A DNA stretch of 64,000 bases. Origin: Vogesella indigofera. GTDB lineage: Bacteria; Pseudomonadota; Gammaproteobacteria; Burkholderiales; Chromobacteriaceae. How positions within the stretch are numbered: position 1 is the first letter of the stretch; the number at the start of each line of letters is the position of its first letter. Below, one piece after another: positions 879-41,192 of this stretch. Location: the NCBI RefSeq assembly GCF_003633895.1, contig NZ_RBID01000011.1, positions 1 to 64,000 on the forward strand, given 5' to 3'. Below the pieces are notes generated by a model. That model searched no databases, was not told the origin of the DNA, and saw nothing but the letters and a program-made list of their open reading frames with translations. The position numbers and the translations under genes are program-made.

Positions 879-1412
879 ATGCTGACCGTTCGTAACGGCG
901 TGCGGGTTGAGGTCTGGCGCGGCGATATCACGCAGCTGGATGTCTCGGCAATCGTGAATGCGGCCAACGTTTCGCTGCGTGGCAGCGGTGGTGTGGACGC
1001 GGCGGTGCACCGAGCAGCCGGCGGTGAGCTGCTGTCGGCCTGCTTGCAGCTGAAGGGTTGTGCCGCAGGTGAAGTCTGTGTCACGCCGGGCTTTGCCTTG
1101 CCTGCGCGCTGGATTTTCCACGCGGTCGGGCCGCGGTGGAAAGGTGGCGAAGACAACGAAGCGCAATTGCTGGTCTCGTGCTATCACAAGAGCCTGCAAC
1201 TGGCGGCAGAGAAGCAGGTGGCCTCGATTGCCTTCGCCGCCATCAGCTGTGGCGCCAATCATTTTCCGCCGCTGGCTGCGGCCAACATTGCTTGGCATGT
1301 GGTGGAAACCTATCTGGCGGCGCCGCCGCCGACGCTGCGCAAGATTGTCTTTGTCGCCTTTGATGAGGAAGTCCATCGTGCTTGGCAGAAGGTGCTGGTC
1401 GGCATCAGCTGA
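879..1412 (+). CDS. macro-domain protein (O-acetyl-ADP-ribose deacetylase type)
   Basis: This 177-residue protein is a single macro domain. The motif GDITQLDVSAIVNAANVSL near the N-terminus and the following GSGGVDAAVHRAAG form the ADP-ribose binding loops of the MacroD/YmdB group, and AISCGANHFPP matches the later substrate loop. Family members hydrolyse O-acetyl-ADP-ribose or remove ADP-ribose from proteins in the cytoplasm. The start ATG at 879 is preferred because GAGG at 868-871 sits 7 bases upstream; a GTG at 873 in the same frame would be too close to that site. The codons for VNAAN contain one copy of the genome-wide GCGGCCAAC motif. The gene appears monocistronic. Confidence 0.88.
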   Translation: MLTVRNGVRVEVWRGDITQLDVSAIVNAANVSLRGSGGVDAAVHRAAGGELLSACLQLKGCAAGEVCVTPGFALPARWIFHAVGPRWKGGEDNEAQLLVSCYHKSLQLAAEKQVASIAFAAISCGANHFPPLAAANIAWHVVETYLAAPPPTLRKIVFVAFDEEVHRAWQKVLVGIS

Positions 1413-1574: not shown

Positions 1575-2507
1575 ATGCACATCGCAAATTCTGTAACGGA
1601 GCTGATCGGCAATACTCCGCTGGTGCGCCTCAATCGGGTCACCGAGGGTGTGGGGGCGACGGTGGTTGCCAAGCTGGAGTTCTTCAATCCGGGGCACAGC
1701 GTCAAGGACCGTATCGCCGTGTCGATGATCGATGCGGCGGAGCAGGCCGGCAAGATCGGGCCGGAGACGGTTATTGTCGAGCCAACATCGGGTAATACCG
1801 GTATCGGGCTGGCCATGGTGTGTGCGGCGCGTGGTTACAAGCTGGTGATCACCATGCCGGAAACGATGAGCCGCGAGCGTCGTCAATTGCTGCGCGCCTA
1901 TGGTGCGGAACTGATCCTGACTCCCGGCCCGGAAGGCATGGGCGGTGCCATCGCCAAGGCCAAGGAACTGGTTGCGGCCAACCCTGAAACCTACTTCCTG
2001 CCGCAGCAGTTCGAGAATCCGGCCAACCCTGAGATCCACCGTCAGACCACCGCCGAGGAGGTCTGGCGCGATACCGATGGCCAGATCGATATCTTCGTGG
2101 CCGGTGTCGGTACCGGCGGTACCATTACCGGGGTGGGCGAGGTGCTCAAGGCGCGCAAGCCCGGGGTGCAGATTGTGGCGGTCGAGCCGGACGCGTCGCC
2201 GGTATTGTCCGGTGGTGCCAAGGGGCCGCATCCGATCCAGGGCATTGGCGCCGGTTTTGTGCCGGCAATCCTGAATACCGCGATCTACGATGAAGTGATC
2301 CGGGTCAAGAATGATGATGCCTTCGAGACGGCGCGCGCCGTGGCGACCAAGGAAGGTGTGCTGGTGGGGATTTCTTCCGGTGCCGCCGTGTGGGCCGCCT
2401 TGCAGTTGGCCAAGCGTCCGGAAAATGCCGGTAAGCTGATCGTGGTGGTGATCCCGTCCTTTGGCGAGCGTTACCTGTCGACGCCATTATTTGAGCACCT
2501 TGCTTGA
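1575..2507 (+). CDS. cysK: cysteine synthase A (O-acetylserine sulfhydrylase)
   Basis: This 310-residue PLP enzyme has the cysteine synthase landmarks: PLP-binding lysine at about residue 44 in NPGHSVKDR, substrate loop TSGNTG at 71-76, and phosphate-binding loop GVGTGGT at 177-183. It makes L-cysteine from O-acetylserine and sulfide in the cytoplasm. The length and the [13 protein letters not shown]-terminal segment fit CysK rather than cystathionine beta-synthase. The start is fixed by GGAGG at 1564-1568 just upstream of ATG 1575; an in-frame ATG at 1557 precedes that site. The 160 bases upstream hold no ORF but include a short inverted repeat ATGGC...GCCAT (1532-1550) that might be an operator. 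Confidence 0.95.
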
Positions 2508-2538: not shown

Positions 2539-2985
2539 ATGAAACAGATATTCATGGTCGTTTTTATTTTGGGCGCGCTGTCGGCGTGCACGGTGCTGCC
2601 GCCTTTGCCGGGCACCAGCGGCGGTGTCGCGGTGCGGCCGGCCGTCGTGTCGCCATCGCAGCGGCTGTATGAGGAAGCGCAGGCGCTGTCGGCGCGGGTC
2701 GCCAAGGGTGAACTGAGCCGGGTGGCGGTCGCCGATCAGCTGGGGGCGCTGCGCGTGCAGCTGGTTGGTCGCAATGCGGTCGATGATGACGTGTTTGCGC
2801 TCTATCGCCAGATTGCGGTGCGTCGCGATGCCGGGCAGATTGACGGTGCCAGGGCGCAGCAGCTGATGCAACAGCGCTTGCAGATGTGGCTGGAACGTTG
2901 GCCGCGCCTTGCCAGCAAGCCGGCACAGCCGGCCTTCACCAGCTTCATGCTCAAGCTGTACAGCATGCCGGCACTGGGGCAGTGA
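2539..2985 (+). CDS. small predicted lipoprotein of unknown function
   Basis: This 148-residue protein starts with a type II signal peptide: MKQIFMVVFILGALSAC, lipobox LSAC, with the lipidated cysteine at about residue 17. The mature part is Ala/Arg/Gln-rich and probably helical (SQRLYEEAQALSARVAKGEL), without a family I recognise. It is likely anchored to an envelope membrane. It begins 31 bases after cysK and ends 4 bases before the YchJ-like gene, so it is probably co-transcribed with the latter. No clear Shine-Dalgarno precedes ATG 2539, but the signal peptide begins exactly there. Confidence 0.75.
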   Translation: MKQIFMVVFILGALSACTVLPPLPGTSGGVAVRPAVVSPSQRLYEEAQALSARVAKGELSRVAVADQLGALRVQLVGRNAVDDDVFALYRQIAVRRDAGQIDGARAQQLMQQRLQMWLERWPRLASKPAQPAFTSFMLKLYSMPALGQ

Positions 2986-5218: not shown

Positions 5219-5409
5219 CGGCTGTTGCGGCCTGCTGCTCGCCGTATGACGCGGTTCGCCACCGCTTGCTGCCGGCAGCGGGGTAAAAGGCGTAAAGGTT
5301 GGCCGCAACGACACATTCGGCGCGCGCCGCGGCATCGTATTTGTCTCGGGCGCGGGCGACGCTTCTGCTACAATCCTGCCCCCTCCTTATTGAATGAACG
5401 GGTTGCACG

Positions 5410-6663
5410 ATGGTTATTCCGGCATGCGGTGTCGATTTTGGCACCTCCAACTCCACGGTCGCCTGTTTCCGCGCCGGGCAGAGCCAGTTGCTGATGCTGG
5501 AAGACGACAAGGCGACCCTGCCATCGGTGGTGTTCTTCAATGCCGAGGAAGAAAGCACCGCCTTTGGCCGGGCCGCGATCGGCGAATACCTGGACGGCTA
5601 CGAGGGGCGGCTGATGCGCTCGCTGAAGAGCCTGCTCGGCACCAGCCTGATGAACGGCCAGACCGAGGTCAATGGCCGCGCGCTGCGTTTCATCGACTTG
5701 CTGTCCTCGTTCATCGGCACCCTCAAGCAGCGCGCCGAACAGCAGGCGGGGCAGGCATTCAGCCGCGCCGTGTTCGGCCGGCCGGTGTTTTTCATCGATG
5801 ACGATCCGGTCGCCGACCAGCTGGCGCAGGACACGCTGGCCGATGTCGCGCGCCGTGCCGGCTTTCAGGAGGTCGCCTTCCAGTTCGAGCCGATTGCGGC
5901 GGCCTTCGACTACGAAAGCCGCATCGAGCGCGAAGAGCTGGTGCTGATCGTCGATATCGGCGGCGGTACTTCCGACTTTTCCTTGGTGCGGCTGTCGCCG
6001 CAGCGCCGCCACCTGCTCGATCGCCGCGACGACATCCTCGCCAATGGCGGCGTGCATATCGGTGGTACCGACTTTGACAAGCAGCTGAGTCTGCACAGCG
6101 TGATGCCGCTGCTGGGCTACCGCACGCGGCTGAAGAACAATGCCGAGGTGCCGTCCGGCTACTACTTCAACCTCGCCACTTGGCACACCATCAACTTTGC
6201 CTACACCCGCAAGACGCTGGCCGACCTGCAGGGGGTGTACGTCGACGCGCTGGAGCGCGACAAGCTGGACCGGCTGTTTTCGGTGATCAACAAGCGCGCC
6301 GGTCACTGGCTGGCGATCCAGGTGGAGGCGGCGAAGATCGCGCTGTCCGACAGCGAGACGCACCAGCTGGCGCTGGACGAAATTGCCGACGGCCTCACGC
6401 ACCAGCTGACACGCAGCCAGTTTGACGAGGCGATCGAGCGCCAGATCGACAGCGTGACGCAGACCATCAGCCGCCTGTTGCAGGATGCCGGCATCACCGC
6501 CGCGCAGATCGATACCGTGTTCTTTACCGGCGGTGCCAGCGCGGTGCCCTTGCTGCGCGAGCGGGTGGCGGCGCTGCTGCCGCAGGCGGCCAAGGTCGAG
6601 GGCGACCGTTATGGCAGCATCGGCAGCGGCCTGGCGCTGGACGCGATGCGCCGCTTCGGCTGA
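5410..6663 (+). CDS. yegD: Hsp70-family protein, YegD-like
   Basis: This 417-residue protein is an Hsp70-type ATPase domain without a substrate-binding domain. It shows phosphate-1 motif GVDFGTSNSTVA (residues 7-18), phosphate-2 motif VDIGGGTSDFSL near 180, and the adenosine motif FFTGGASAVPLL near 375. The length matches YegD, a DnaK relative of unknown client range. A TACAAT hexamer at 5369-5374 is a plausible -10 element; no strong Shine-Dalgarno is seen before ATG 5410. The upstream 190 bases also hold one copy of GTTGGCCGC (5298). The gene ends 46 bases before an inverted motif pair that probably terminates it. Confidence 0.88.
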   Translation: MVIPACGVDFGTSNSTVACFRAGQSQLLMLEDDKATLPSVVFFNAEEESTAFGRAAIGEYLDGYEGRLMRSLKSLLGTSLMNGQTEVNGRALRFIDLLSSFIGTLKQRAEQQAGQAFSRAVFGRPVFFIDDDPVADQLAQDTLADVARRAGFQEVAFQFEPIAAAFDYESRIEREELVLIVDIGGGTSDFSLVRLSPQRRHLLDRRDDILANGGVHIGGTDFDKQLSLHSVMPLLGYRTRLKNNAEVPSGYYFNLATWHTINFAYTRKTLADLQGVYVDALERDKLDRLFSVINKRAGHWLAIQVEAAKIALSDSETHQLALDEIADGLTHQLTRSQFDEAIERQIDSVTQTISRLLQDAGITAAQIDTVFFTGGASAVPLLRERVAALLPQAAKVEGDRYGSIGSGLALDAMRRFG

Positions 6664-6709
6664 ACGGGGTTTTGCTCGCGCCGGTGTGGCGGGCGCTGGC
6701 GAAGGGAAT

Positions 6710-6740
6710 TGCGGCCAACCTTGGGGCAAGGTTGGCCGCA
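6710..6740. terminator. inverted pair of the GCGGCCAAC motif acting as terminator-like hairpin
   Basis: Two copies of TGCGGCCAACCTTG in opposite orientation (6710-6723 and 6727-6740) form a 14-bp perfect stem with a 3-base loop, followed by TTGTCT. It lies between convergent yegD and the small ORF at 6776-6925. The arms are the same motif that recurs throughout the core part of the window. Confidence 0.75.
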
Positions 6741-6775
6741 TTGTCTGGTAGGCCGGACGCGCCGGCAGAGGGGTG

Positions 6776-6925
6776 TCAGCCGACGAATTCCACCGGCACG
6801 AAATAGCTGTGGCCGATGCGGGTCAGCAGCACCTGCGGCTGGCCGGCGACCACGGCACGGAAGGCGCGCGGCAGGCGTTTCCAGTCACGGAACATCATCT
6901 TGATCGGGTCGTTGTAGCTGTTCAT
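6776..6925 (-). CDS. 49-residue protein downstream of the UmuD-like gene
   Basis: A short ORF starts MNSYNDPIKMMFRDWKRLP and ends SYFVPVEFVG, with a good AAGGAG ribosome site 6 bases before the ATG (complement strand). It starts 17 bases after the stop of the UmuD-like gene, so the two are probably one transcript. The sequence is basic and amphipathic, has no signal peptide, and matches no family I recognise. Codon use is like that of its neighbours. Its coupling to an S24 peptidase suggests an accessory or regulatory role, which is inference. Confidence 0.6.
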   Translation of the reverse strand: MNSYNDPIKMMFRDWKRLPRAFRAVVAGQPQVLLTRIGHSYFVPVEFVG

Positions 6926-6941: not shown

Positions 6942-7523
6942 TCAGTCCACGGCGTGAATGACGTTGGTCACGACGCCCCAGATAAAGAAACTGGCATCCT
7001 CGGGTACTTCGATCGGCTTGAAGGCCGGGTTTTCCGGTAGCAGGCGCACCCGTCCGGCGGAGCGCTCCAGCCGTTTTACCGTCAGTTCGTCATTGATCAC
7101 CGCCACCACCACCTTGCCGTTGCGCGGCTCCAGCGAGCGATCGACCACCAGCATGTCACCATCGTGGATGCCGGCATTGATCATCGAGTCGCCCTTGACG
7201 GTGACGAGAAAGGTCGACGCCGGTTTGCGCACCAGATGCTGGTTGAGGTCGATGTCGGCCTCTTTCAGGTCGTCGGCAGCGACCGGCGAGCCGGCCGGTA
7301 CGCGGCTGGCAAACAGCGGCAGCGACAGGTTTTTCAGCGCCTCGCCGAGCAGGGCGATGTCGCCGATGCTGCTGTGGTTGATGCTGCGCAGGCTGCGGTA
7401 TTCGTCCAGCCAGTTTTCCAGTACCGGTTTCAGCGGCTCCGGTACGCGCATGGCGACGGTCTTGTCACCGCCGAAGCGGGATTTGCGACCGGCGCCTTCG
7501 CGCTTTCCTCCTTGCGATGACAT
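6942..7523 (-). CDS. UmuD-like S24-family self-cleaving protein
   Basis: This 193-residue protein has a C-terminal LexA/UmuD peptidase fold with an Ala77-Gly78 cleavage site (VPAGSP), nucleophile Ser113 in KGDSMINAGIHDGD, and catalytic Lys150 in NDELTVKRL. The first 70 residues differ from E. coli UmuD, whose N-terminal arm is only about 24 residues. They are basic at the start (KREGAGRKSRFGG) and then helical, possibly a DNA- or partner-binding segment. UmuD-type proteins are cleaved on RecA filaments and join UmuC to form polymerase V. No umuC lies next to it; only a 49-residue ORF follows. AGGAGG six bases upstream fixes the start. I cannot identify a LexA box with confidence. Confidence 0.85.
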   Translation of the reverse strand: MSSQGGKREGAGRKSRFGGDKTVAMRVPEPLKPVLENWLDEYRSLRSINHSSIGDIALLGEALKNLSLPLFASRVPAGSPVAADDLKEADIDLNQHLVRKPASTFLVTVKGDSMINAGIHDGDMLVVDRSLEPRNGKVVVAVINDELTVKRLERSAGRVRLLPENPAFKPIEVPEDASFFIWGVVTNVIHAVD

Positions 7524-7568: not shown

Positions 7569-7791
7569 GGCAAGTTTAATTGTGGCGCGGGCTGCGGGAT
7601 TGTGGTTTTTTGGCGTGACCGTTTGCGGATCAAGGGCTTGGCGGGATTGTCGGCCAGCTGGCCGCGGGGGCGAGGCCGGGGATGTCGTGGCGCTTGCCGC
7701 GGCAGACCGGCCCGGCGGCGGCTTGCGGCCAACGTTGGTCGCAAGCCGTATGGGTGAAACGGGCCGGTGTCGCGCCGGCCCATGACGGCTT
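7569..7791. other. intergenic stretch upstream of the UmuD-like gene
   Basis: There is no convincing gene here. The region must hold the promoter for the UmuD-like gene (reading leftward, AT-rich around 7543-7575), and it contains one inverted copy of the GCGGCCAAC motif at 7721-7746. Confidence 0.5.
7721..7746. repeat. inverted GCGGCCAAC motif pair
   Basis: The palindrome GCTTGCGGCCAACG followed by TTGGTCGCAAGC has 13-base arms with a single mismatch. It lies in intergenic DNA between the UmuD-like gene and the repeat element at 7792. Confidence 0.7.
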
Positions 7792-9356: not shown

Positions 9357-9772
9357 GGTGTTGCTCTCCGTTATTGAGTGTCTGTAATTATGGTACGGAA
9401 TGGCGTTGTAATTAAGTGGCTACAGCGGTAATAAAATTACGCTGAGACAAGGTTGGCCGCAAACCGTCATCCTGTCGGCGCGAATGGCGGGGCACTGCAT
9501 GGCAACGTTCTGGCATAAGTTGTGACGATACCGGTATTGGGCGTTGTTTTTGTGCCAAGCAGATTCGTGATTGTAATCAATCACTCGCGTTTTGACGGCG
9601 GATTGGCCGTTGCCGCCAATAACGCGAAACGCTTGCATTCAAGACGCCCTGCCGGGGGGCGTGGTAAAGTTGATTGTCTACAAAAAGGGTGATCACGAGT
9701 CACCCTGTGATTATTTTGGCGGAATTATTGGCATGAAATGTCTCCGCCGGCGGAATAAAGGAGCGCCTTGTT
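9357..9772. promoter_or_regulatory. divergent region between pyk and pepD
   Basis: There is no gene in these 416 bases. The left part carries the pyk promoter (minus strand). The middle has one GTTGGCCGC motif (9452-9460). Near 9687-9705 a short hairpin GGGTGA...TCACCC lies upstream of the pepD ribosome site AAGGAG at 9758-9763. Confidence 0.5.
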
Positions 9773-11230
9773 GTGGTGAATATTGCAGCCCTCGAACCTA
9801 CCATCGTGTGGGAACACTTTCAGACCCTGTGTGACATTCCTCGTCCTTCCAAACATGAAGCGGCGCTGCGCGACTATCTGAAAGGCTGGGCGGAACTGCG
9901 CGGTCTGGAGACGGTGGTCGATGCGGCCGGCAACCTGATCGTGCGCAAGGCGGCGACGCCGGGTATGGAAGACCGTGTCGGCGTGGTGCTGCAGGGCCAC
10001 CTCGACATGGTGTGCCAGGCCAATACCGGCACCGTGCACGACTTCTTCAATGACCCGATCCGTCCGCTGCTGAAGGACGGCTGGCTGATCGCGGAAAACA
10101 CCACGCTGGGGGCCGACAACGGTATCGGCGTGGCGCTGGGGCTGGCGGTGCTGGCCAGCGACGACATCGCGCACGGCCCGGTGGAAGTGCTGATGACGCT
10201 GGACGAAGAGGCCGGCATGGGCGGCGCGCAGGGGCTGGAGCCGGGGCTGTTGCAGGGCCGGATGCTGATCAATATCGATACCGAGGAGTGGGGCGAGTTC
10301 TACATGGGCTGTGCCGGCGGCATCGATGTCAACGCGCGGCGCAGCTACCAGCCGCAGCCGTTGCCGGCGGGCTTCGAGGTGCGCCAGCTGACGGTGGCCG
10401 GGCTGGTCGGCGGCCATTCCGGCGCCGATATCCACCTTGGTCGCGGCAATGCCAACAAGGTGTTGATCCGCCTGCTGCGCGAGCTGGAAACGGTTACCGA
10501 TCTGCGCGTGGCGTCGTTCAATGGCGGTACCGCGCGCAATGCGCTGGCACGCGAGGCCTTTGCCGTGGTGGCCTATCCGGCCGTCGACGGCGACAAGCTG
10601 GCGGCGCGGCTGGATGCGTTCCAAGCGCTGATGCGCTTCGAGCTGGCCGGTGTCGATGAAGGGGTGAGCATTGCGGCCAACCTTGCCAGCGCCAGCGAGG
10701 TGCTGGCGCCGACCGACCAGCAGGCGATCTTCCGCGCGCTGCACGCGGCACCGCACGGGGTGAAGCGCATGAGCCAGCGCGTCGGCGGCGTGGTGGAAAC
10801 GTCCAATAATCTGGGGGTGATCAGCATTGCCGACGGCAAGGTGTTCACCAACCTGATGGTGCGCTCGCTGCTGGACAGCGGTTTCCAGAATCTGGCCAGC
10901 GAGATCGTCGGCCTGTTCCAACTGGCCGGTTTCGAGGTGGAAACCGAGGGCGGCTACCCGGGCTGGGCACCGAATCCGGCCTCGCCGCTGCTGGCGCTGT
11001 TCCAGCAGGTGTATCGCCAGCAGTTCGGCGCCGATTCCGGGGTGCAGGTGATCCATGCCGGGCTGGAGTGCGGCATCATCGGCGCCAAGTACCCGCAGAT
11101 GGACATGGTGTCGTTCGGCCCCAATATCCGTGGCGCGCATGCGCCGGGCGAGCGGGTGGAGGTGGCCTCGGTCGGCAAGGCCTGGCAGTTGCTGCAGGCG
11201 GTGCTGGCCGCGGTGCCGGCCCGCGCCTGA
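9773..11230 (+). CDS. pepD: aminoacyl-histidine dipeptidase (Xaa-His dipeptidase)
   Basis: This 485-residue M20-family peptidase matches PepD/PepV-like cytosol nonspecific dipeptidases. Zinc ligands are visible in VLQGHLDMVCQ (His, Asp) near residue 80, in the bridging Asp of TTLGADNGIGVA near 118, and in the general-base pair LDEEAGMGGA near 145. The dimerisation domain begins around GLVGGHSGADIHLGRGNAN. It hydrolyses dipeptides including carnosine in the cytoplasm. The start is taken as GTG 9773 with AAGGAG nine bases upstream; a second GTG follows directly. A strong bidirectional terminator follows the stop. Confidence 0.92.
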   Translation: MVNIAALEPTIVWEHFQTLCDIPRPSKHEAALRDYLKGWAELRGLETVVDAAGNLIVRKAATPGMEDRVGVVLQGHLDMVCQANTGTVHDFFNDPIRPLLKDGWLIAENTTLGADNGIGVALGLAVLASDDIAHGPVEVLMTLDEEAGMGGAQGLEPGLLQGRMLINIDTEEWGEFYMGCAGGIDVNARRSYQPQPLPAGFEVRQLTVAGLVGGHSGADIHLGRGNANKVLIRLLRELETVTDLRVASFNGGTARNALAREAFAVVAYPAVDGDKLAARLDAFQALMRFELAGVDEGVSIAANLASASEVLAPTDQQAIFRALHAAPHGVKRMSQRVGGVVETSNNLGVISIADGKVFTNLMVRSLLDSGFQNLASEIVGLFQLAGFEVETEGGYPGWAPNPASPLLALFQQVYRQQFGADSGVQVIHAGLECGIIGAKYPQMDMVSFGPNIRGAHAPGERVEVASVGKAWQLLQAVLAAVPARA

Positions 11231-13889: not shown

Positions 13890-13918
13890 TGGGGTCGGAG
13901 CTTGCCTTGCGGCCAACC

Positions 13919-15735: not shown

Positions 15736-15757
15736 TTGCGGCCAAGGTTGGCCGCAA
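15736..15757. repeat. inverted GCGGCCAA motif pair
   Basis: Ten-base arms TTGCGGCCAA and TTGGCCGCAA are separated by GG, forming a 22-bp near-palindrome between the nudC stop and the chemoreceptor start. It is one of the intergenic inverted pairs of the recurring motif; it could also help end nudC transcription. Confidence 0.7.
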
Positions 15758-17418: not shown

Positions 17419-17628
17419 TGGCTGCTCCTAAGTTGATTGCCGGGTTGTGGTGATCCGGACTTGCGCTGGCCGCATGGCAGGCTGTGTGCCTGCCGGTGCC
17501 GGGACGGGGTCGCCGGGCTTGCCTTGTCGTTGTGTGGGCGGATGCTTGCGACTTGCGGCCAACGTGCGTGCGCTGCTGTGCTAGGGCGTCTGCCGGCACG
17601 TGGTCCACATCCAATTTTTACTAAACAA

Positions 17629-22298: not shown

Positions 22299-23048
22299 TT
22301 GTTCGCGAGTTCCACGCAGGATGTGCCCGAGGTACGGCCCGTACCCCGGCATATCGCCATCATCATGGATGGCAACGGCCGCTGGGCCAAGAAGCGCTTT
22401 CTGCCGCGCGTTGCCGGCCACAAGCGCGGGCTGGAGGCGGTACGCGACACCATCAAGGCCTGTGCCGAGCTGGGCGTCGAATACCTGACCCTGTTCGCGT
22501 TTTCCACCGAAAACTGGCGCCGCCCGCCGGATGAGGTCAGCTTCCTGATGGGGTTGTTCATGACCGCGCTGGAGCGCGAGGTGGACAAGCTGCACCGCAA
22601 CAACATCCGCCTGCACGTGATCGGTTCGCGCGAACGCTTCTCCGCCGAAATCGTCGAGCGCATCGAGCGGGCCGAGGCGCGCACCGCCGGCAATGCCGGG
22701 CTGGTGCTGACCATCGCCGCCGATTACGGCGGTCGCTGGGATGTGATGCAGGCCGCCAACCGGCTGCTGGCACAAGGTGCAACCCGGCTGGACGAGGCCG
22801 CCCTTGCGGCCAACCTGTCGATGGCCTACGCCCCGGAGCCGGATCTGTTCATCCGTACTGGTGGCGAGCAGCGCATCAGCAATTTCCTGTTGTGGCAGCT
22901 GGCCTATACCGAGTTGTTCTTTACCGATTTGCTGTGGCCGGATTTCGATGCGCAGGCATTGACCTCGGCGGTGGCATCGTTCCGGTCTCGTGAGCGCCGT
23001 TTCGGCCGTACCAGCGAGCAACTGCCCGAAACCCAACGCCGAGGCTGA
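22299..23048 (+). CDS. uppS: undecaprenyl diphosphate synthase
   Basis: This 249-residue cis-prenyltransferase shows [16 protein letters not shown] (catalytic Asp in MDGNGRW), [34 protein letters not shown], and the Arg-rich product site [19 protein letters not shown] with [15 protein letters not shown]. It makes the C55 carrier lipid for peptidoglycan and O-antigen. The start is TTG 22299: AAGGGG overlapping the frr stop lies 6 bases upstream, and no ATG precedes the conserved domain. A copy of GCGGCCAAC occurs at 22806. Confidence 0.96.
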
Positions 23049-23051
23049 GTC

Positions 23052-23855
23052 ATGCTCAAGACGCGTATTCTGACGGCGCTGGTGCTGCTTCCGCTGATGC
23101 TGGCGGCGCTGTTCCTGTTCAATGGCGTGGCCTGGGCCGGTTTTTCCTGGCTGATCATCGTGCTGGCGCTGTGGGAGTTCGCCCGCATGGCCCGCCTTGA
23201 TGGTGCCGTACGCTACGCCTATCTGGCGGTATCGACCATGGTGGCCGCTGGTCTGTGGCTGCAGGGCTTTGTCGCGCCGGCGGCGCTGATGGCGCTGTCG
23301 CTGCTGGTGTGGCTGCTGCTGGCGCCGTGCTGGCTGGCCAAACGTTGGCCGCTGCCCCGCGGCTGGTCGGCGATGCTGCTGGGCTGGCTGCTACTGTTTC
23401 CGGCGTGGTTTGCCTTCCTGGCATGGCGGCCGCAACCTACTGTCGCCGATGGCCTGCAGCTACTGGCGGTGATGGGACTGGTGTGGGTGGCCGACATCGC
23501 CGCCTATTTTGCCGGCAAGGCCTTTGGCAAGCACAAACTGGCACCGACGATCAGTCCCGGCAAGAGCTGGGAAGGAGTCGCCGGCGCGGTGGTCGGCGTC
23601 TCGCTGTACAGCTGGCTGGTGACACAATGGGGCTGGCTCAACGTGCCGCTGTCGCCGTTATGGCTGCTGCCGCTGGCGATCGGCCTGACCGCGGTCAGCG
23701 TGGTCGGCGACCTGCTGGAGTCCTGGTTCAAGCGCAGCGCCGGCATCAAGGATAGCAGCCAGCTGCTGCCAGGTCATGGCGGGGTGTACGACCGTATCGA
23801 TAGCCTGATTGCCGTGCTGGCGGTGTCCCATGCGCTCCGTCTTTTGCTGGTCTGA
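23052..23855 (+). CDS. cdsA: phosphatidate cytidylyltransferase
   Basis: This 267-residue integral membrane protein has about eight hydrophobic segments and the CdsA signature near its C-terminus: SWFKRSAGIKDSSQLLPGHG then GVYDRIDSL. It makes CDP-diacylglycerol from phosphatidate and CTP, feeding all phospholipid synthesis in the inner membrane. It starts 3 bases after uppS and ends 3 bases before dxr, so it is tightly co-transcribed. Confidence 0.96.
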   Translation: MLKTRILTALVLLPLMLAALFLFNGVAWAGFSWLIIVLALWEFARMARLDGAVRYAYLAVSTMVAAGLWLQGFVAPAALMALSLLVWLLLAPCWLAKRWPLPRGWSAMLLGWLLLFPAWFAFLAWRPQPTVADGLQLLAVMGLVWVADIAAYFAGKAFGKHKLAPTISPGKSWEGVAGAVVGVSLYSWLVTQWGWLNVPLSPLWLLPLAIGLTAVSVVGDLLESWFKRSAGIKDSSQLLPGHGGVYDRIDSLIAVLAVSHALRLLLV

Positions 23856-23858
23856 ATC

Positions 23859-25039
<1,181 letters not shown>

Positions 25040-25040
<1 letters not shown>

Positions 25041-26377
25041 TGGCCTTGCTGGCCTTTCTGCTGGTGATCGGGGTGCTGGTCACCTTTCACGAGTTTGGCC
25101 ACTATGTCGCCGCTCGCTATTGCGGGGTCAAGGTGCTGGAGTTTTCCATCGGCTTCGGCAAGCCGCTGCTGACCTGGCAGCGCGGCGAAACCAGCTGGAA
25201 GATCGGCTGGATTCCGCTGGGCGGCTTCGTGCGCATGCTCGACAGTCGCGAGGCAGCGGTGTCGGCAGCAGACTTGCCGCGCGCCTTCAACCAGCGTCCG
25301 CCGTGGCAGAAAATCCTGATTTCGATCGCCGGGCCGCTGGCCAACCTGCTGCTGGCGGTGTTGCTGTTCTTTGTGGTGATGCAGGGCGAGCAGACCCGTC
25401 TGCTGCCCTACGTCGGCAGCGTCGCGCCGCAGTCGGCGGCGGCGGCGGCCGGCGTGCTGCCCGGTGATCACATCCGGGCGGTCAACGATACCGAGATCGC
25501 CGACTGGCATGCGCTGCGTGGCGGACTCAGTGACGCCATTGCCCTCGATGGCCGCATGGTGCTGTATATCGCCCGTGACGGCGTGGACATGACGCTGGCG
25601 GTGGACTTGCCGGCATTCGGCCTGCAGCAGCTCAACGAGCAGAGCCTCGCCCGGCTCGGCTTGTCGCCGTTGCGTTACCATCTGGCGCTGGGCGAGCTGG
25701 CACCGGATGGCGCGGCGGCACGGGCCGGTCTGCGCCAGGGTGACCGTTTGCTGGGCGCGGATGGTCAGCCGCTGGCATCGTGGCCGGCGTGGGTCAGCTA
25801 TGTGCAGGCCCGTCCCGGGCAGGCCATCCGCTTGCGCATCCAGCGCGACGGCCAGTTGCGCGAGGTGGTGCTGACGCCGGACAGCAGCGAGTACAACGGG
25901 CAAAAGGTTGGCCGCATCGGTGCCGGCGCGCTGCCCGATGTGGCGTGGCAGCAGAAAATCGAACAGCAGGTGACGGTGGGGGTGGGCGAGGCGTTGCAGC
26001 AGGCGCTGGCACGCACGGCTAGCCTCATGGCATCCAGTTTGCGTATGATTGGTGCGATGTTTACCGGTACGGTGGCGCTGGAAGCGCTGAGCGGGCCGCT
26101 GACCATCGCCGACTATGCCGGCAAGAGCGCCGACCTGGGGCTGGTGCCGCTGCTGGAATTCATGGCACTGATCAGTGTCAGTTTGGGGGTATTCAACCTG
26201 TTGCCGGTGCCGGTGCTGGATGGCGGGCACTTGCTGTATCATGTCGCGGAGTGGATACGCGGGCGACCGTTGCCCGATCGAGTATATGAAATCGGTCAGC
26301 GTTTGGGGATGGCTTTCATCATGACAGTCATGTTGCTGGCCCTGTTCAATGACTTCGGCCGGCTTTTTGCCGGCTAG
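25040..26377 (+). CDS. rseP: RseP-type site-2 intramembrane zinc protease
   Basis: This 445-residue membrane protein has the zinc motif HEFGH at residues 17-21 in the first helix, IGWIPLGGFVRM, tandem PDZ domains (about 110-310), and the third zinc ligand in VPVLDGGHLLYH near 395. It cuts the anti-sigma factor RseA and signal-peptide remnants in the inner membrane. The start ATG overlaps the dxr stop by one base (ATAATGG). bamA follows 13 bases after the stop. Confidence 0.96.
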
Positions 26378-29243: not shown

Positions 29244-30278
29244 ATGAAACTATCTGCAATTGTGGCCGCCCTGGGCGGCGAGCTGCGTGGCGACGATCGC
29301 GAGATCCAGCGCCTGGCGCCGATGGATGAGGCCGGGGCGAGTGACATCACCTTCCTGGCCAATCCCAAGTATCGCAGCCAGCTGGCGTCCAGCGCAGCTG
29401 CGGCGGTGATCGTGAAGCCGGCGCTGGCGGAAGAGGCGGCCAAGGTTGGCCGCAGCCTGATCCTGGCGGCGGATCCGTACCTGTATTTTGCCAAGGTGGC
29501 GCGGCTGTTCAGCCCGCTGCCGCTGGCGCGTGGCGGCGTGCACCCGCGTGCGGTGGTGGCCGACGGCTGCCGCATCGCCGCCAGCAGCGAAGTGCGCGAG
29601 CTGGTCAGCATCGGCCGCAACGTGACTATCGGCGAGCGCTGCATCCTGCATCCCGGCGTGGTGCTCGGTGACGATGTCTGCCTCGGCGACGACGTGGTGC
29701 TCTATCCCAATGTGGTCATCTATCATGGCTGCCGTCTTGGCTCGCGGGTGATGGTGCACGCCGGCGCGGTGATCGGCGCCGACGGCTTTGGCCTCGCCTG
29801 GAACAGCGACCGCTGGTTCAAAATCCCGCAAACCGGCGTGGTGGTGATTGCCGACGACGTCGAAATCGGCGCCAATACCACTATCGACCGTGGCGCGCTG
29901 TCCGATACCGTGATCGGCGAGGGCGCCAAGCTCGACAACCAGATCCAGATTGCCCACAACGTGACGGTCGGCGCCCACACCGCGATGGCCGGTTGCGCCG
30001 CGGTGGCAGGCAGCACCCGCATCGGTGCGCGCTGCACCATCGGTGGTGCGGCACGTATCATCGGCCATCTGGAGATTGCCGACGGCACTCATGTCGGCGC
30101 TGGTACCCTGATTTCCAAATCCATCCGCAAGGCGGATGCCTACACCGCGGTCTACCCGATGGCGACGCACAAGGAGTGGCTGGCCAATGCCGCCCATGTC
30201 CGTCATCTGGACGACCTGGTGACCCGTGTCAAACAACTTGAAAAAGCGCTGAGCACAGCGCAACAGAACAAGGACTGA
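29244..30278 (+). CDS. lpxD: UDP-3-O-acylglucosamine N-acyltransferase
   Basis: This protein of about 344 residues has an N-terminal uridine-binding domain ([32 protein letters not shown]), a left-handed beta-helix of hexapeptide repeats (about 105-300), the catalytic His in [17 protein letters not shown], and a C-terminal helix. It adds the N-linked hydroxyacyl chain in lipid A synthesis. ATG 29244 is used; ATG 29235 is an alternative. Neither has a Shine-Dalgarno because the upstream bases form a terminator hairpin, which is unusual. GTTGGCCGC occurs at 29445. Confidence 0.95.
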
Positions 30279-31535: not shown

Positions 31536-32705
31536 ATGACTGAAAAGCTGTTTGCCCGTCCGGCCAAGCTCAAGGTCGCCATGGTGGCTGGCGAAGCCTC
31601 CGGCGACCTGCTCGGCGCCCACCTGATGGATGCGTTGAAAGCGGCGCATCCCGACATCGCCTTCGCCGGCATCGGCGGCCCGCGCATGCTGGCGCGCGGC
31701 TTTGTCAGCCAAGTGTCGCAGGAGCGGCTGGCGGTGCGCGGTTATGTCGAGGTGTTGTCGCGCCTGCCCGAGCTGCTGCGCATCCGTCGTCGCCTGCGCG
31801 ACACCCTGCTGGCGGAAAAACCGGACGTGTTCATCGGCATCGACGCGCCGGACTTCAACCTGCAGCTGGAAAAATGGCTGAAGCAGGCCGGCATCCCCAC
31901 CGCGCACTATGTCAGTCCGTCGGTGTGGGCGTGGCGGCCGGAGCGGGTGGTGAAGATCGGCGAGTCGGCGGATCAGGTGCTGTGCCTGTTCCCGATGGAA
32001 AAGCCGCTGTACGACGCCGCTGGCGTCAACGCCACCTTTGTCGGCCATCCGCTGGCCGGCGAGATCGCGATGCAGCCGGACCGCGAGGCGATGCGCGACC
32101 AGCTCGGCCTGCCGCGCGACGTGCCGGTGTTTGCCTTGCTGCCGGGCAGCCGCAAGAGCGAGCTGGACTACATGGGCGGGCTGTACATCGAGACCGCGCG
32201 CCTGCTGTTGCAGCAGTTTCCCGATGCGCAATTCCTGGTACCGCTGGCGACGCGGCCAACCCTGGACCAGTTCGACCGCCTGCTGTCCGAGCACAAGGCG
32301 TGGGACCTGCCGATCCGCAAGCTGATCGGCCACGCGCAGATGGCGATGATCGCCGCCGACGTGGTGCTGGTCACCAGCGGTACCGCGACGCTGGAAGTGG
32401 CGCTGACCAAACGGCCGATGGTGATCAGCTACAAGCTGTCGTGGCTGACCTACCAGCTGGTCAAGCGCAAGCTGAAGCTGCCCTACGTCGGGCTGCCCAA
32501 TATCCTCGCCAAGCGCTTCGTGGTGCCGGAGCTGCTGCAGCACGAGGCGACGCCGGCCAAGCTGGCCGCGGCGGTGGCCAACCTGTACCAGAACACCGAG
32601 GCACGCGACGAGGTGATCAGCACCTTCACCGAGCTGCATCGCTCGCTGCAGCAGGATTCGGCGCGCCTGGCGGCGCAGGCCATCCTCAAGTTGGCCGCAT
32701 GCTGA
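31536..32705 (+). CDS. lpxB: lipid A disaccharide synthase
   Basis: This 389-residue glycosyltransferase (GT19) has [19 protein letters not shown] at the start, [54 protein letters not shown], and the nucleotide-binding segment [19 protein letters not shown] near residue 285. It joins UDP-diacylglucosamine and lipid X on the inner face of the inner membrane. Its stop overlaps the rnhB start by 7 bases, indicating translational coupling. Confidence 0.97.
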
Positions 32706-33283: not shown

Positions 33284-33293
33284 GGTTGGCCGC

Positions 33294-34107: not shown

Positions 34108-35295
34108 ATGCAAACAGTTGACCAAACCCGTGACTGGCTGCTTTCGCGTGCCCGTGTCGTCGATGCCATCGAGCAGGTGCCGCTGCTGGACGCTGCCGGT
34201 CGCGTGCTGGCGCGCGAGCTGGTCTCGCCACTGGACGTACCACCCCATGACAACAGCGCGATGGACGGCTACGCCGTGCGCGCCGCCGATGCGGCCAACG
34301 TTTTGCCGGTCAGCCAGCGCATCCCGGCCGGCGCCGTGCCGCAGGCACTGGCCGCCGCCAGCGCGGCGCGCATCTTTACCGGCGCGGTGATCCCGCCGCA
34401 GGCCGACGCGGTGGTGATGCAGGAGCAGGCCGAGGTGCAGGCGGACGGTAGCGTGCTGTTCACCGCGCCGGTACGCATCGGGCAGAACATCCGCCGCCGC
34501 GGCGAGGACATCGCCGTCGGCCAGCTGGTGCTGGCCTGCGGCCAACGTTTGCGCGATGCCGACCTCGGCGTCGCTGCCGCCATCGGCCAGCCGCAGCTGG
34601 CGGTGTTCCGCCGCCTGAAGGTGGCGGTGTTCTTCACCGGTGACGAGCTGGTGGAGCCGGGCGAAGCAGCGCCGGCCGGCAAGATCTACAACTCCAACCG
34701 CTACTGGCTTGTGCCGGCGCTGCGCCAGCTCGGCTGCGAGGTGATTGATCTGGGTATCATCGCCGACCGGCTGGACGCCACCCGCGCCGCGCTGCGCGAT
34801 GCCGCCGCGCGGGCCGACGTGGTGATGACCTGCGGCGGGGTGTCGGTGGGGGAGGAGGATCACGTCAAGGCGGCGGTAGAGGCCGAGGGCGAGCTGCAGC
34901 TGTGGAAGATCGCGATCAAGCCGGGCAAGCCGCTGGCCAGTGGCCGCATCGGCGACGCCGACTTCATCGGGCTGCCCGGCAATCCGGTGTCCGGTTACGT
35001 CACCTTTGCGGTGCTGGTGCGCGATTTCCTGCGCGCGCGCATGGGCGAGACGGTGCAAGGTTGGCCACAGCCGCGCCTGCTGCCGGCCGCCTTCGACTGG
35101 CTCAAGCCGGACCAGAAGCGCGAGGAATTCCTGCGCGTGCGCATCGTGACGCAGGACGGCCAGCAGCAGCTGCAGCGTTTCGGCAACCAGGGGTCCGGGG
35201 TGCTGACTTCCTGCGCCTGGGCCGATGGCCTGGTGCGCCTGCAGCCGGGGCAGAGCGTGCAGCCGGGTGACCTGTTGCCGGTGTATCCGCTGTGA
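34108..35295 (+). CDS. moeA: molybdopterin molybdenumtransferase MoeA
   Basis: This 395-residue protein shows the MoeA landmarks: PPHDNSAMDGYAVRAAD near residue 50, ARIFTGAVIPPQADAVVMQE, IRRRGEDI, VAVFFTGDELVEPG near 180, the molybdate/MPT loop MTCGGVSVGEEDHVK, and GLPGNPVSGYVTF near 295. It inserts molybdate into adenylated molybdopterin. The start is ATG 34108 (MQTVDQTRDW); in-frame upstream sequence overlaps the previous ORF. Two GCGGCCAAC motifs lie inside (34291, 34538). Its TGA overlaps the GTG start of the ferredoxin gene. Confidence 0.95.
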   Translation: MQTVDQTRDWLLSRARVVDAIEQVPLLDAAGRVLARELVSPLDVPPHDNSAMDGYAVRAADAANVLPVSQRIPAGAVPQALAAASAARIFTGAVIPPQADAVVMQEQAEVQADGSVLFTAPVRIGQNIRRRGEDIAVGQLVLACGQRLRDADLGVAAAIGQPQLAVFRRLKVAVFFTGDELVEPGEAAPAGKIYNSNRYWLVPALRQLGCEVIDLGIIADRLDATRAALRDAAARADVVMTCGGVSVGEEDHVKAAVEAEGELQLWKIAIKPGKPLASGRIGDADFIGLPGNPVSGYVTFAVLVRDFLRARMGETVQGWPQPRLLPAAFDWLKPDQKREEFLRVRIVTQDGQQQLQRFGNQGSGVLTSCAWADGLVRLQPGQSVQPGDLLPVYPL

Positions 35296-35636
35296 CCACG
35301 CTGCAATTCCTGCGCGACGGGCAGCCGCTGGCCGAGGTCGACGCCAGCGCCGGCGACCTGCTGATCGACGTGGCGCGTTTTCACGAGGTGCCGCTGCACT
35401 GGCGCTGCGGGCAGGGCACCTGTGGCACCTGCGCGGTGCACATCGCGCACGCCGGCCAGCCGGCCACGGTCAAGGTTGGCCGCAAGGAGCGCAACGTGCT
35501 GCTGCGCGCCGGCTTGATCGACGCCGCGCAGGCGGCGGCCGACACCTGGCCGGACACGCCGCAGACGGTGCGGCTGGCCTGTCATCTGCTGGTCACTGAT
35601 GCGCCGTGGCAGGTCACGCTGCCGCAAGATAGTTAA
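35292..35636 (+). CDS. [2Fe-2S] ferredoxin-like protein
   Basis: This 114-residue plant-type ferredoxin domain has cluster ligands in WRCGQGTCGTCAVHI (Cys-x4-Cys-x2-Cys) and a distal Cys in RLACHLL, the standard spacing. It starts at GTG 35292, overlapping the moeA stop (GTGA), so it is translationally coupled. It probably transfers electrons in the cytoplasm; the partner is unknown, and coupling with moeA hints at molybdoenzyme metabolism, which is inference. One GTTGGCCGC motif lies within (35475). Confidence 0.87.
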   Translation: MTTLQFLRDGQPLAEVDASAGDLLIDVARFHEVPLHWRCGQGTCGTCAVHIAHAGQPATVKVGRKERNVLLRAGLIDAAQAAADTWPDTPQTVRLACHLLVTDAPWQVTLPQDS

Positions 35637-35908: not shown

Positions 35909-36507
35909 TCGAACGTGTGGCCGTGATCGACTTCGAGACCACCGGCATCACGCCGGGGCGGGAAGGGCGGGCCACGGAAATCGGCATCGTGATGCTGGAG
36001 GGCGGCGTCATCGTCGACCGTTTCCAGAGCCTGATGAACGCCGGCGTGCGCGTGCCGCCGATGATCGAGCAACTGACCGGCATCAGCAACGCCATGCTGC
36101 GCGCGGCGCCGCCCGCGGCGGGCGTGATGCGCGATGCGGCCAACTTCGTCGGCACCACCCCGCTGGTGGCGCACAATGCCAGCTTCGACCGCAAGTTCTG
36201 GGATTTCGAGCTGGCGCAGTGTGGGCTGGCGCGGACGCAGGACTTTGCCTGCACCCTGTTGCTGTCGCGCCGGCTGCTGCCGCAGGCGCCGGATCACAAG
36301 CTGGGCACGCTGACGCGCTGGGCCGGGCTACCTGCCACCGGCCGCGCCCACCGCGCGCTGGCCGATGCCGAAATGGCGGCCAACCTGCTGCTGCACCTCG
36401 GCCAGACCGTGGCCCGCAGCTGTCGCCAGCCGGTGAATCACGCGCTGCTGTGCAAACTGCAGGCCGTCACCGCGGCCAAGGTGCCGCAGTTCCTGCAGCA
36501 GCACTGA
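35905..36507 (+). CDS. DnaQ-like 3'-5' exonuclease
   Basis: This 200-residue DEDDh exonuclease carries ExoI motif VIDFETTGITPG, ExoII LVAHNASFDRKFWDFE near residue 95, and ExoIII HRALADAEMAANLL near 150, with all four acidic residues and the motif III His. It resembles the epsilon-subunit family but lacks the beta-clamp and alpha-binding tail of DnaQ, so it may be a free repair or RNase T-like enzyme. It starts at ATG 35905 overlapping the preceding small ORF. Its TGA stop is the first base pair of the dispersed repeat copy 2. Two GCGGCCAAC motifs lie inside (36136, 36376). Confidence 0.88.
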   Translation: MIERVAVIDFETTGITPGREGRATEIGIVMLEGGVIVDRFQSLMNAGVRVPPMIEQLTGISNAMLRAAPPAAGVMRDAANFVGTTPLVAHNASFDRKFWDFELAQCGLARTQDFACTLLLSRRLLPQAPDHKLGTLTRWAGLPATGRAHRALADAEMAANLLLHLGQTVARSCRQPVNHALLCKLQAVTAAKVPQFLQQH

Positions 36508-38363: not shown

Positions 38364-38876
38364 CGCTTTCCTTTTATGAATCGAACAGTCAATGACAAGG
38401 ATCGTTAAATCCGGTGTAGTCCGGAAACGGGATGTTGACCAGCGAGGATGCGGCCATATAGGCTGGCCCGGTTTACCTAGGTTGGCTATTGATTGACTGT
38501 CTCAGTCTGACAAGTTCCTGAAATATCGTGAAATTACCGTGTTAATCATAAAAAATCGGATTTTTAGACGATTAATATCGTGATATGGCTGGTTTTAACG
38601 GTTTATGAAGATGGAGCACAAACGGGGCGGAGTGGTGGGAGCCGTGGCGACGGCTCTGGCGGTCGACGGTAAGACTTGGTGGTAGCTGGCTTGTGCCAAA
38701 GCAAGCGCAAATTATGTGGTGGAGCAGGATGGTTGCCTGTGACAAAAATCGCGCAAAACTGTGCCAAAAATAACGCGAAGTTACACGGTCATTGTGTAGC
38801 ACCCACAGGTAACAGGCAAAGAAAAAAGCCATTAAAAACCAGTAATTTACTGATCTTCAATGGCTTTTGTATCCGG
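38364..38876. other. intergenic region left of the island border
   Basis: There is no convincing gene in these 513 bases. Composition shifts from GC-rich to AT-rich after about 38,510. Near 38,824-38,868 a composite hairpin (AAAAGCCATT with AATGGCTTTT, inner CAGTAA/TTACTG) is followed, on the minus strand, by a T-run, so it is a leftward intrinsic terminator with no gene of its own in front of it. Confidence 0.55.
38824..38868 (-). terminator. orphan leftward terminator at island border
   Basis: Read on the minus strand, arms AAAAGCCATT and AATGGCTTTT close a second stem CAGTAA/TTACTG and run into TTTTTTC. It directly follows, in that direction, a fragment ending CGCCGCCTCCACCA. It is best explained as the terminator of a tmRNA or tRNA gene whose body was displaced by the island. 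Confidence 0.65.
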
Positions 38877-38897
38877 TGGTGGAGGCGGCGTCCACCA
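38877..38897. other. putative attachment-site remnant (tmRNA/tRNA 3' end)
   Basis: On the minus strand this reads CGCCGCCTCCACCA at 38890-38877, the acceptor-end sequence expected of a tmRNA or tRNA ending in CCA. The bases also form an inverted repeat TGGTGGA-N7-TCCACCA (38877-38897). It lies 144 bases before the integrase start, where the attL of a P4-type element is expected. No second copy is visible to the right within the window. Confidence 0.5.
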
Positions 38898-39040
38898 TTG
38901 GCATGTCTATTGTTGTCTACAAAATTCCATCTTTTCTTTTATTTTACATGATGTTACGAATTTTGTTGTCCACGAAAGTCTACCGATGTACGCTTGAAGC
39001 CATCTAAAAATGGCTACCATGATGGCTACTAGGTTTCTCC

Positions 39041-40243: not shown

Positions 40244-40418
40244 CAATTTCCGCTACCGAATCGATTGAACCTCATCACAATAAGCCGGCTTGGTGGCCAT
40301 GCTGCTGCCACATAACCCAGCCTAGGCGACACTATGGCCGTTCAATCACAGAGTGCAGCAACGCTTAGTGCACGATATAGGGCGGCTAGTGGCTCGGTGC
40401 AAAGCCTTCACACTGGTC
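40244..40418. other. non-coding stretch between integrase and IS remnant
   Basis: I see no gene, clear terminator or repeat in these 175 bases; they may be residue from earlier insertions. Confidence 0.4.
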
Positions 40419-41108
40419 TGTCCCGCTCTCCATGGACTACGGGTTAAGCACTAAGCACTGAACGACTTTGTTCGAATTCAACCGGGGTCAGATACCCCAG
40501 TGTCGAATGGCGTCGTTGGTGATTGTAAAAGCGGATGTAATCAAACACATCAGTACGCGCTTTCTCGTAGCCCCAATAACTGGTTAGATAAACCCGTTCC
40601 GACTTCAGCGAGCGGAAGAAGCTTTCCATCGCAGCATTATCCCAGTAGTTCCCGGCGCGGGAGTGACTCGGTACCATCCCAGGCTGTTTCAGCAATGCCT
40701 GGTAGTCAAAGGCACAGTACTGACTCCCCCGGTCCGAATGCAGAATCACCGCTCCTGAAGGCTTGCGACGTGCCACGGCCATCGTCAGGGCGGCATGAAC
40801 CAGCTCTTGCTGCATTCAATGATGCATGGTACATGCCCACTATCGCCAGGGAATGCAAGTCGAGTACCACTACGAGATACAGCCACCCTTCACCGGTCCG
40901 GATATAGGTCATCTCAGATATCCAGCGCTGATTGATGTCGCCAGCGGTGAATTGTCGCTGCAGCAGATTGGGCGCTACGGGCAGAAGATGCTTCCCGCCA
41001 CTGACTGGTCGCCAACGTTTACTGGTTCTGACCCTGATGCCGTTTCGCCGTAGCAAGTCCTCAATGCGTTCCCATTGGTCACCTCTCAGCGCGTACTATT
41101 TGTCATGG
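40419..41108 (-). mobile_element. scrambled IS remnant: IS5-type start fused to IS3-type transposase
   Basis: On the minus strand an IS3-family OrfB fragment is recognisable: LPVAPNLLQRQFTAGDINQRW, HSDRGSQYCAFDYQALL, ESFFRSLKSERVYLTSYWGY and FYNHQRRHSTLGYLTPVEFE. A frameshift near 40,815-40,840 splits it, and the first catalytic Asp position reads Glu (WISEMTYI). Upstream, in the same frame, is YALRGDQWERIEDLL (about 41,051-41,095), the N-terminus of an IS5-family transposase. Two unrelated IS elements have thus been joined by deletion. The left limit, TGTCCCGC at 40,419, is a tentative IS end. Confidence 0.7.
40444..41056 (-). pseudogene. IS3-family transposase, truncated and frameshifted
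   Basis: Two overlapping frames (41,056 down to about 40,830, and 40,815 down to 40,444) together rebuild the C-terminal two thirds of an OrfB integrase domain. The N-terminal helix-turn-helix-like part is missing and replaced by IS5 sequence. It cannot make an active enzyme. Confidence 0.8.
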
Positions 41109-41192
41109 GCAATTATTAGTAGGGGCAGGATTTTTTCTTCAATACCCGGCAGAGAATTGATGACATGGCCTATCACCTGTTGGCTGTGCGCA

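Follow-up and report, generated by a model that had tools for sequence, protein, structure and literature searches.

A putative DNA uptake sequence of Vogesella indigofera and its related dialects in the Chromobacteriaceae

The stretch analyzed in this study (the window) comprises the first 64,000 nucleotides of contig NZ_RBID01000011.1 of Vogesella indigofera (assembly GCF_003633895.1), a genome of 3,618,773 bases in 20 contigs that is labelled G000 here. A short motif built around the 9-mer GCGGCCAAC recurs throughout its first part. The first-pass annotation had listed 28 sites of this 9-mer and considered an uptake dialect of the lineage, a chromosome-organising signal or a methylation motif. 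Using an exact scan of both strands, 31 copies were identified. All 28 listed positions were confirmed, but the total was too low, the copies at 2897 (-), 23344 (-) and 32252 (+) having been overlooked. The expected number in the window is 1.2 from base composition, 2.2 from a third-order and 5.8 from a fifth-order Markov model, the last value being higher because the fifth order absorbs part of the signal. Genes were called by codon usage with a home-made caller, and their start positions are approximate. The two paired arrangements and all single copies are as follows.

6710-6740 (no strand): inverted motif pair TGCGGCCAACCTTG, 3-nt loop, CAAGGTTGGCCGCA; intergenic hairpin, by scan and RNA fold
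24187-24206 (no strand): perfect palindrome of 20 bp, TGCGGCCAACGTTGGCCGCA, formed by two head-to-head copies that overlap, in dxr (23859-25040)
960-968 (+): motif copy TGCGGCCAACGTT, in called gene
1278-1286 (+): motif copy TGCGGCCAACATT, in called gene
1974-1982 (+): motif copy TTGCGGCCAACCCT, in called gene
2897-2905 (-): core copy CGCGGCCAACGTT, in called gene, newly found
5298-5306 (-): full motif TTGCGGCCAACCTT, intergenic
6711-6719 (+): full motif TTGCGGCCAACCTT, intergenic, hairpin arm 1
6731-6739 (-): motif TGCGGCCAACCTT, intergenic, hairpin arm 2
7725-7733 (+): full motif TTGCGGCCAACGTT, intergenic
9452-9460 (-): full motif TTGCGGCCAACCTT, intergenic
10673-10681 (+): full motif TTGCGGCCAACCTT, in called gene
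13909-13917 (+): motif TTGCGGCCAACCTC, intergenic
15747-15755 (-): full motif TTGCGGCCAACCTT, intergenic
17555-17563 (+): motif TTGCGGCCAACGTG, intergenic
22806-22814 (+): motif TTGCGGCCAACCTG, in called gene
23344-23352 (-): core copy AGCGGCCAACGTT, in called gene, newly found
24188-24196 (+): motif TGCGGCCAACGTT, palindrome arm 1
24197-24205 (-): motif TGCGGCCAACGTT, palindrome arm 2
25907-25915 (-): motif TGCGGCCAACCTT, in called gene
29445-29453 (-): motif TGCGGCCAACCTT, in called gene
32252-32260 (+): core copy ACGCGGCCAACCCT, in called gene, newly found
32690-32698 (-): motif TGCGGCCAACTTG, in called gene
33285-33293 (-): motif TGCGGCCAACCTT, between two called genes
34291-34299 (+): motif TGCGGCCAACGTT, in called gene (moeA-like)
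34538-34546 (+): motif TGCGGCCAACGTT, in called gene (moeA-like)
35475-35483 (-): full motif TTGCGGCCAACCTT, in called gene
36136-36144 (+): motif TGCGGCCAACTTC, in called gene
36376-36384 (+): core copy GGCGGCCAACCTG, in called gene
43357-43365 (+): motif TGCGGCCAACCTT, histidine kinase gene, sparse region
48861-48869 (-): motif TGCGGCCAACGTG, PATR-repeat gene, sparse region
51669-51677 (+): full motif TTGCGGCCAACGTT, intergenic
61879-61887 (-): core copy CGCGGCCAACCTT, resistance-nodulation-division (RND) efflux gene

The unit is longer than the 9-mer. In the window, the 10-mer TGCGGCCAAC was found 26 times against 0.38 expected at third order; a T precedes GCGGCCAAC in 26 copies, and 18 copies extend as TGCGGCCAAC(C/G)TT. 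For all placement statistics, a sample of 464 kb was used, consisting of the window and 20 further stretches selected by us (approximately 13% of the 3.62 Mb). The consensus in this sample was tTGCGGCCAAC(C/g)TTg, i.e. t-T-GCGGCCAAC-(C.60/G.27)-T-T-g. The 10-mer was identified 220 times, compared to 5.4 expected from a fourth-order Markov model, and the exact 15-mer TTGCGGCCAACCTTG 47 times, compared to 0.009 expected, while all single substitutions of the latter at the ten TGCGGCCAAC positions total 6. For the 13-mer TGCGGCCAAC(C/G)TT, 144 exact copies stand against 39 versions with a single substitution (20 of them at the first T), so that such versions are rare, yet some exist. In the whole genome, TGCGGCCAAC(C/G)TT was found 1372 times on both strands and TTGCGGCCAAC(C/G)TT 675 times, whereas the reversed motifs used as controls gave 1 and 0 copies, respectively. 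The excess is thus far above Markov expectation, and the motif in the window is a real and strong feature. The earlier statement that it saturates the core region holds as an enrichment in that part, although "saturates" is a strong word for about 0.5 10-mers per kb in the sample.

Per Mb, the motif occurs 1196 times in intergenic and 163 times in genic sequence, a difference of approximately 7-fold. Among the 220 TGCGGCCAAC sites, 126 are genic and 4 lie at stretch edges, and tandem, convergent and divergent gaps hold 47, 37 and 6, respectively; convergent gaps total just 8.9 kb of the sample and divergent gaps 20 kb. The genic copies were compared to a codon null, in which synonymous codons were shuffled within genes (100 shuffles, 445 called genes) while the protein and the codon use were kept. 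The 13-mer was found 25 times in sense and 38 times in antisense orientation, and the shuffled means were 0.20 (maximum 2) and 0.65 (maximum 3), respectively. For the 10-mer, 57 sense and 67 antisense copies compare to 3.3 and 3.4. All six frames are used, as had been suggested from the several reading frames seen in the window, but unevenly (42, 8 and 7 in sense; 37, 23 and 7 in antisense). The preference for GCG-GCC-AAC, the frame of 42 of the 57 sense copies, would agree with a by-product of codon or dipeptide usage (Ala-Ala-Asn). This explanation was rejected and has a negligible probability: the shuffling leaves approximately 0.9 of the 63 coding 13-mers, and the intergenic density exceeds the genic one. 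Near-Markov counts and codon or dipeptide preference had both been named beforehand as grounds for giving up the motif; both were tested and neither was found.

Close pairs are a second property of the motif. Neighboring TGCGGCCAAC sites within 60 bp were found 23 times, with 6.2 expected for 220 sites. All of these pairs are inverted (18 head to head, 5 tail to tail), and no pair has both copies in one direction. Intergenic positions account for 20 of them, genes for 2 and a stretch edge for 1, in agreement with the inverted pairs between genes described before. The perfect palindrome TGCGGCCAACGTTGGCCGCA accounts for 7 of the 23. In the window, the pair at 6710-6740 forms a hairpin of 14 bp, and the 61-nt stretch 6700-6760 was predicted to fold at -34.9 kcal/mol (z -5.5). 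On one side of it, a called gene on the + strand ends at 6663, and on the other side lies a short one at 6776-6925 (-). The former (5410-6663) encodes an Hsp70-like chaperone, its best NCBIfam score being under the curated cut-off, and a UmuD/LexA-like protein is encoded further on the other side (6942-7523, -).

The stability of this hairpin and the position of the pairs, a median of 32 bp downstream of the stop codon (21 pairs measured) and in convergent gaps for 12 of the 23, are features of a dispersed terminator or a repetitive extragenic palindromic (REP)-type element. Furthermore, TTTT was found within 14 nt of 5 of the 11 non-overlapping head-to-head pairs, compared to 3.9% of random positions. 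Nevertheless, a terminator requires a stem and not a fixed sequence, 126 of the 220 TGCGGCCAAC copies are located inside called genes, and the coding 13-mers exceed the codon-preserving null approximately 70-fold. An origin as terminator or REP-type element is therefore very unlikely.

The GGCC within the motif could point to a site of methylation or restriction that modification has shaped, methylation being the third option of the first-pass annotation. Outside the motif, however, GGCC, GCGGCC, TGGCCA and CGGCCG are below expectation, and since such words are not over-represented there, nothing points to an origin in methylation or restriction. Modification would also not predict a 13-bp consensus with inverted pairing, and we regard it as extremely improbable.

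The orientation of the 10-mer showed no significant relation to GC skew in the sampled stretches of three genomes. The copies on the G-rich and C-rich strand numbered 108 and 112 in G000 (p = 0.84), 53 and 63 in G001 (p = 0.40), and 120 and 150 in G004 (p = 0.08). The spread is even, with a variance-to-mean ratio of the counts per 20 kb of 1.10 and 0.48. An apparent one-strand run beyond 293 kb was rejected, as the stretches there hold 41 forward and 44 reverse 10-mers. In the sample, the placement showed no strand bias, an intergenic excess and pairs past stop codons. A chromosome-organising or replication/recombination signal would account for a well-defined oligomer that is present in hundreds of copies throughout the genus. 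Motifs of this type (FtsK-orienting polar sequences (KOPS), Chi, matS) show replichore polarity or regional restriction. KOPS-, Chi- and matS-like roles are disfavored because neither polarity nor clustering was detected in the sampled stretches. In addition, all 23 close pairs of the G000 sample are inverted, sister genera spell the motif differently, and elsewhere in the family its core stays at background level (see below). Such a signal is highly improbable here.

Within the window, 27 of the 31 sites lie in 1-38400 and 4 in 38401-64000 (two-sided binomial p = 0.0015, for a boundary chosen by us). The sparse part includes a segment of 18.6 kb with 54.6% GC (38401-57000), which encodes an integrase (39041-40243), a sensor kinase, a YagK/YfjJ protein (54880-55545) and a PATR-repeat (autotransporter-type) protein of 2141 amino acids (45232-51657). 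This segment resembles an acquired island; beyond it lies a Cus-like metal efflux operon (57312-63234).

Vogesella belongs to the Chromobacteriaceae (Neisseriales) in the NCBI taxonomy. A panel of 61 genomes of this family and 386 genomes from other families of the same order was searched; genomes are labelled G000, G001 etc. and further genera g6-g10 and the like. The core CGGCCAAC(C/G)TT shows a bimodal distribution in the family, with 60-1533 copies in 23 genomes (carriers) and 1-12 in 38 genomes. In the 386 genomes of other families it was at background, with a maximum of 14. The TG spelling of Vogesella was found in all 13 Vogesella genomes of the panel (473-1372 copies), and TT- or CT-CGGCCAAC in ten further genomes from six other genera. 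The TT form is carried by Pseudogulbenkiania, Gulbenkiania, JH1-16/C. oryzisoli, one g6 species and the sole g10 genome, and the CT form by Crenobacter luteus and its genus mate. In samples of 80-120 kb for each of nine other genera of the family, TTCGGCCAAC was identified in g2, g3, g5 and g10 and CTCGGCCAAC in g4, while no such word was seen in the samples of g6, g7, g8 and g9. In this comparison with related genera, which the first-pass annotation had proposed, sister genera carry related dialects with the common core CGGCCAAC.

The TG and YT dialects are largely mutually exclusive in the named genomes (23 genomes searched per dialect). The TG/YT counts include:

V. alkaliphila: 1291/1
V. 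margarita: 1356/1
V. fluminis: 1330/1
V. aquatica: 568/1
V. oryzae: 717/1
P. subflava: 11/269
P. ferrooxidans: 6/338
Crenobacter luteus: 2/362
Gulbenkiania mobilis: 0/298
C. oryzisoli: 6/120
JH1-16: 3/540
Three Neisseria genomes: 0-1/0-2

The 338 copies of the TT/CT dialect belong to P. ferrooxidans 2002, which we take to be the same strain as L. nitroferrum 2002. The whole genome of G017 (g6) carries the TTCGGCCAAC dialect with 251 copies of YTCGGCCAAC(C/G)TT, compared to 0-3 in its nine genus mates. Its core copies number 262, those of the mates 2-8. G017 is the sole carrier of its genus and, together with its mates, is a natural pair for gain or loss. Among the Vogesella genomes, G000 shows a strong TTG tail and G004 a weaker one; the G004 pilin (see below) belongs to another clade. 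As further observations, four TTCGGCCAACCTT occur in direct tandem with an exact spacing of 11 bp in Gulbenkiania mobilis (G016, C1:156999-157044), an array that differs from the inverted pairs of Vogesella, and samples L079-L084 of G022 contain a second repeated word, AGATTGGCACGC, with 6 copies in 120 kb against approximately 0.01 expected.

A ComP-like minor pilin, which the first-pass annotation had suggested looking for, is encoded in all 23 carriers. Using a profile of four rows (A1), three ComP structures were the top three of 30 PDB matches. The predicted structure is a ComP-like type IV pilin fold, for which known receptors of DNA uptake sequences (DUS) were also the best PDB matches by fold. 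The best named match of the pilin was found in V. alkaliphila (94% of the pilin; the scan may omit the source genome's own records), where the DNA surrounding the gene is 90.6-93.5% identical across approximately 6 kb; the window thus probably derives from a Vogesella species other than V. alkaliphila. Type IV minor pilin genes are present in the carrier genome, and a ComEC domain could be identified in 21 of the 23 carriers including G000, with none found in G002 and G008. The family PF16732 (ComP_DUS) was rejected as a marker, as it also matches other pilins and, at E 0.001, occurs in 56 of the 61 genomes. A loop N-x-D-x-G was found in 21 of 23 carriers and in none of the 11 non-carriers examined (of 38), and its N is preceded by R or K in 19 of the 23 carriers, with G017 counted once, and in none of the same 11. 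This loop, noticed post hoc in related sequences, serves as a lead only. Two tandem ComP-like pilin genes, neither with N-x-D-x-G, are located in G021 (g10; L099:10642-11636), which carries 464 core copies although both pilins lack the loop.

The excess over Markov and codon expectation, the inverted pairs, the absence of polarity, the dialects and the ComP-like pilin together support the reading as the uptake dialect of this lineage. It is very likely that the motif is a DUS of Vogesella (approximately 13-15 bp, tTGCGGCCAAC(C/G)TTg) from a dialect family of the Chromobacteriaceae, whichever pilin reads it; the dialects are probably read by the ComP-like pilins. The lower copy number in the part of the window that bears the integrase fits this reading.

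Several results weigh against it. The sparse island is partly a composition effect because the motif density rises with GC content, from 0.83 per 5 kb at 52-57% to 3.25 above 67% in the sample, with the exception of two bins below 52% that average 2.0. Many non-carriers also encode divergent relatives of the pilin (g6, most g7, 2 of 6 g8; E 1e-25), so that a ComP-like pilin alone is no predictor of the motif. With a profile built from 22 of the 23 carriers (A3, G017 left out), G017 scored 134 bits compared to 132 for the best non-carrier. The soluble part contains 2 Cys in 32 of 35 pilin rows and 3 in G001 and G017 (tabulated twice), and the pilin has no counterpart to the second disulfide in Neisseria ComP (the "DD region"). 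The N-x-D-x-G rule is broken in G021 and G006. Two other candidate marks of carriers were rejected, a Lys after an aromatic residue (G-x-[YF]-K stretch), which failed for G017, and the net charge of the pilin, which gave no clean separation. ComEC is not specific for carriers because it was also found in the searched non-carriers of the family. Finally, uptake and binding by way of the motif are deduced from sequence.

A FimT/GspH-type pilin gene lies beside comP, and this pilin, or another one, could be the reader. Such a reading, in which the motif is an uptake sequence recognized by a FimT/GspH-like partner or a PilE-like pilin, would still be part of the DUS interpretation. The GspH/FimT-type gene, assigned by its sequence, adjoins the ComP-like gene in G000, G001 and G004, divergent ComP-like pilins are also present in motif-free genera, and DNA uptake mediated by FimT has been reported (PMC8897410). 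Known DUS receptors are nevertheless the top PDB matches of the ComP-like family by sequence and by fold, and the other PF16732 pilin tested (L049 type) is closest to PilA/PilE. A reader other than the ComP-like pilin is thus unlikely.

For a DUS read by the ComP-like pilin, we infer DNA binding, a preference in uptake, ComP as the reader and a drive. The ComP-related minor pilin on the surface of type IV pili would prefer motif-bearing DNA, and pilus retraction and ComEC would import the bound DNA. Molecular drive is a general concept, in which a motif spreads and is repaired through recombination. Recombination of imported DNA could spread and repair the motif in the genome in this way, and because of this drive copies would collect at tolerated places: between genes, as inverted pairs that maybe double as terminators, and singly within genes.

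We consider it likely that sequence-specific uptake arose or diverged far beyond the Neisseriaceae, with a language of the Chromobacteriaceae that is built on CGGCCAAC as an unrelated core, has three or more spellings, was gained or lost in a patchy manner, and has readers of the ComP family without the second disulfide. If true, ComP would be a receptor of older origin that had changed its specificity to another word, and the loop that tracks the presence of the motif might provide a readable protein-DNA code. A second uptake language in a sister family is relevant to the origin, the switching and the loss of such systems. G017 and the other g6 genomes, as well as Vogesella (TG) and the TT/CT genera, are natural pairs for decoding how ComP reads. 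The motif may also help to detect recently acquired DNA and to plan the transformation of Vogesella and Pseudogulbenkiania.

Uptake-sequence systems have been described for the Neisseriaceae and the Pasteurellaceae, according to the parts of the literature covered. Among the papers listed in literature searches, none reported the motif, or a DUS for Vogesella, sister genera or the Chromobacteriaceae; Table S1D of PMC3630211, with over-represented 10-mers of five genomes including Pseudogulbenkiania, lies outside the coverage and may print part of the motif without naming it a DUS. The preferred reading is a family of DUS dialects that is new to the Chromobacteriaceae, with this table as the main risk to its novelty. 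In the 2013 survey, Laribacter hongkongensis, Lutiella nitroferrum 2002, Pseudogulbenkiania sp. NH8B and two Chromobacterium were described as being without an obvious abundant DUS, a BLAST search there yielded no ComP, and DUS-based transformation was placed after the split from C. violaceum (PMC3630211). Another ComP search was limited to the Neisseriaceae (PMC12061091).

The inverted pairs past stop codons resemble REP and terminator hairpins. The motif differs from these in that 126 of 220 10-mers are genic and only 23 close pairs occur among the 220 sites. The uptake signal sequence (USS) of the Pasteurellaceae is unrelated in sequence to the CGGCCAAC-core motif. It is likewise a short genome-wide motif linked to natural competence, but belongs to a different lineage, and its predicted receptor is a different minor pilin, ComN/PpdA (PMC12616744, in part).

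The similarity to the DUS of the Neisseriaceae is larger. Both have many genome-wide copies on both strands and related dialects between related genera (PMC3630211, PMC4906244 and PMC12061091, from the parts covered), inverted pairs at terminators and overlapping dyads, the latter reported for Simonsiella (PMC3630211, in part), and a ComP-family minor pilin in the carriers. The CTG core is common to all Neisseriaceae dialects described in the covered part of PMC3630211. In contrast, neither the Vogesella consensus TGCGGCCAAC(C/G)TTG with its core CGGCCAAC nor its complement contains CTG, consistent with the earlier view that the two motifs are unrelated. A C ahead of the first T would create CTG, but is not conserved (26% in G000, 39% in G004). 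The DD region of Neisseria ComP is held by two disulfides with four Cys (PMC4906244, in part), whereas the Chromobacteriaceae pilin has one potential disulfide. The carriers also belong to a different family, in which the role in uptake is a proposed one. The system would work like that of Neisseria, but its core is unrelated and its ComP-like pilin is without the second disulfide.
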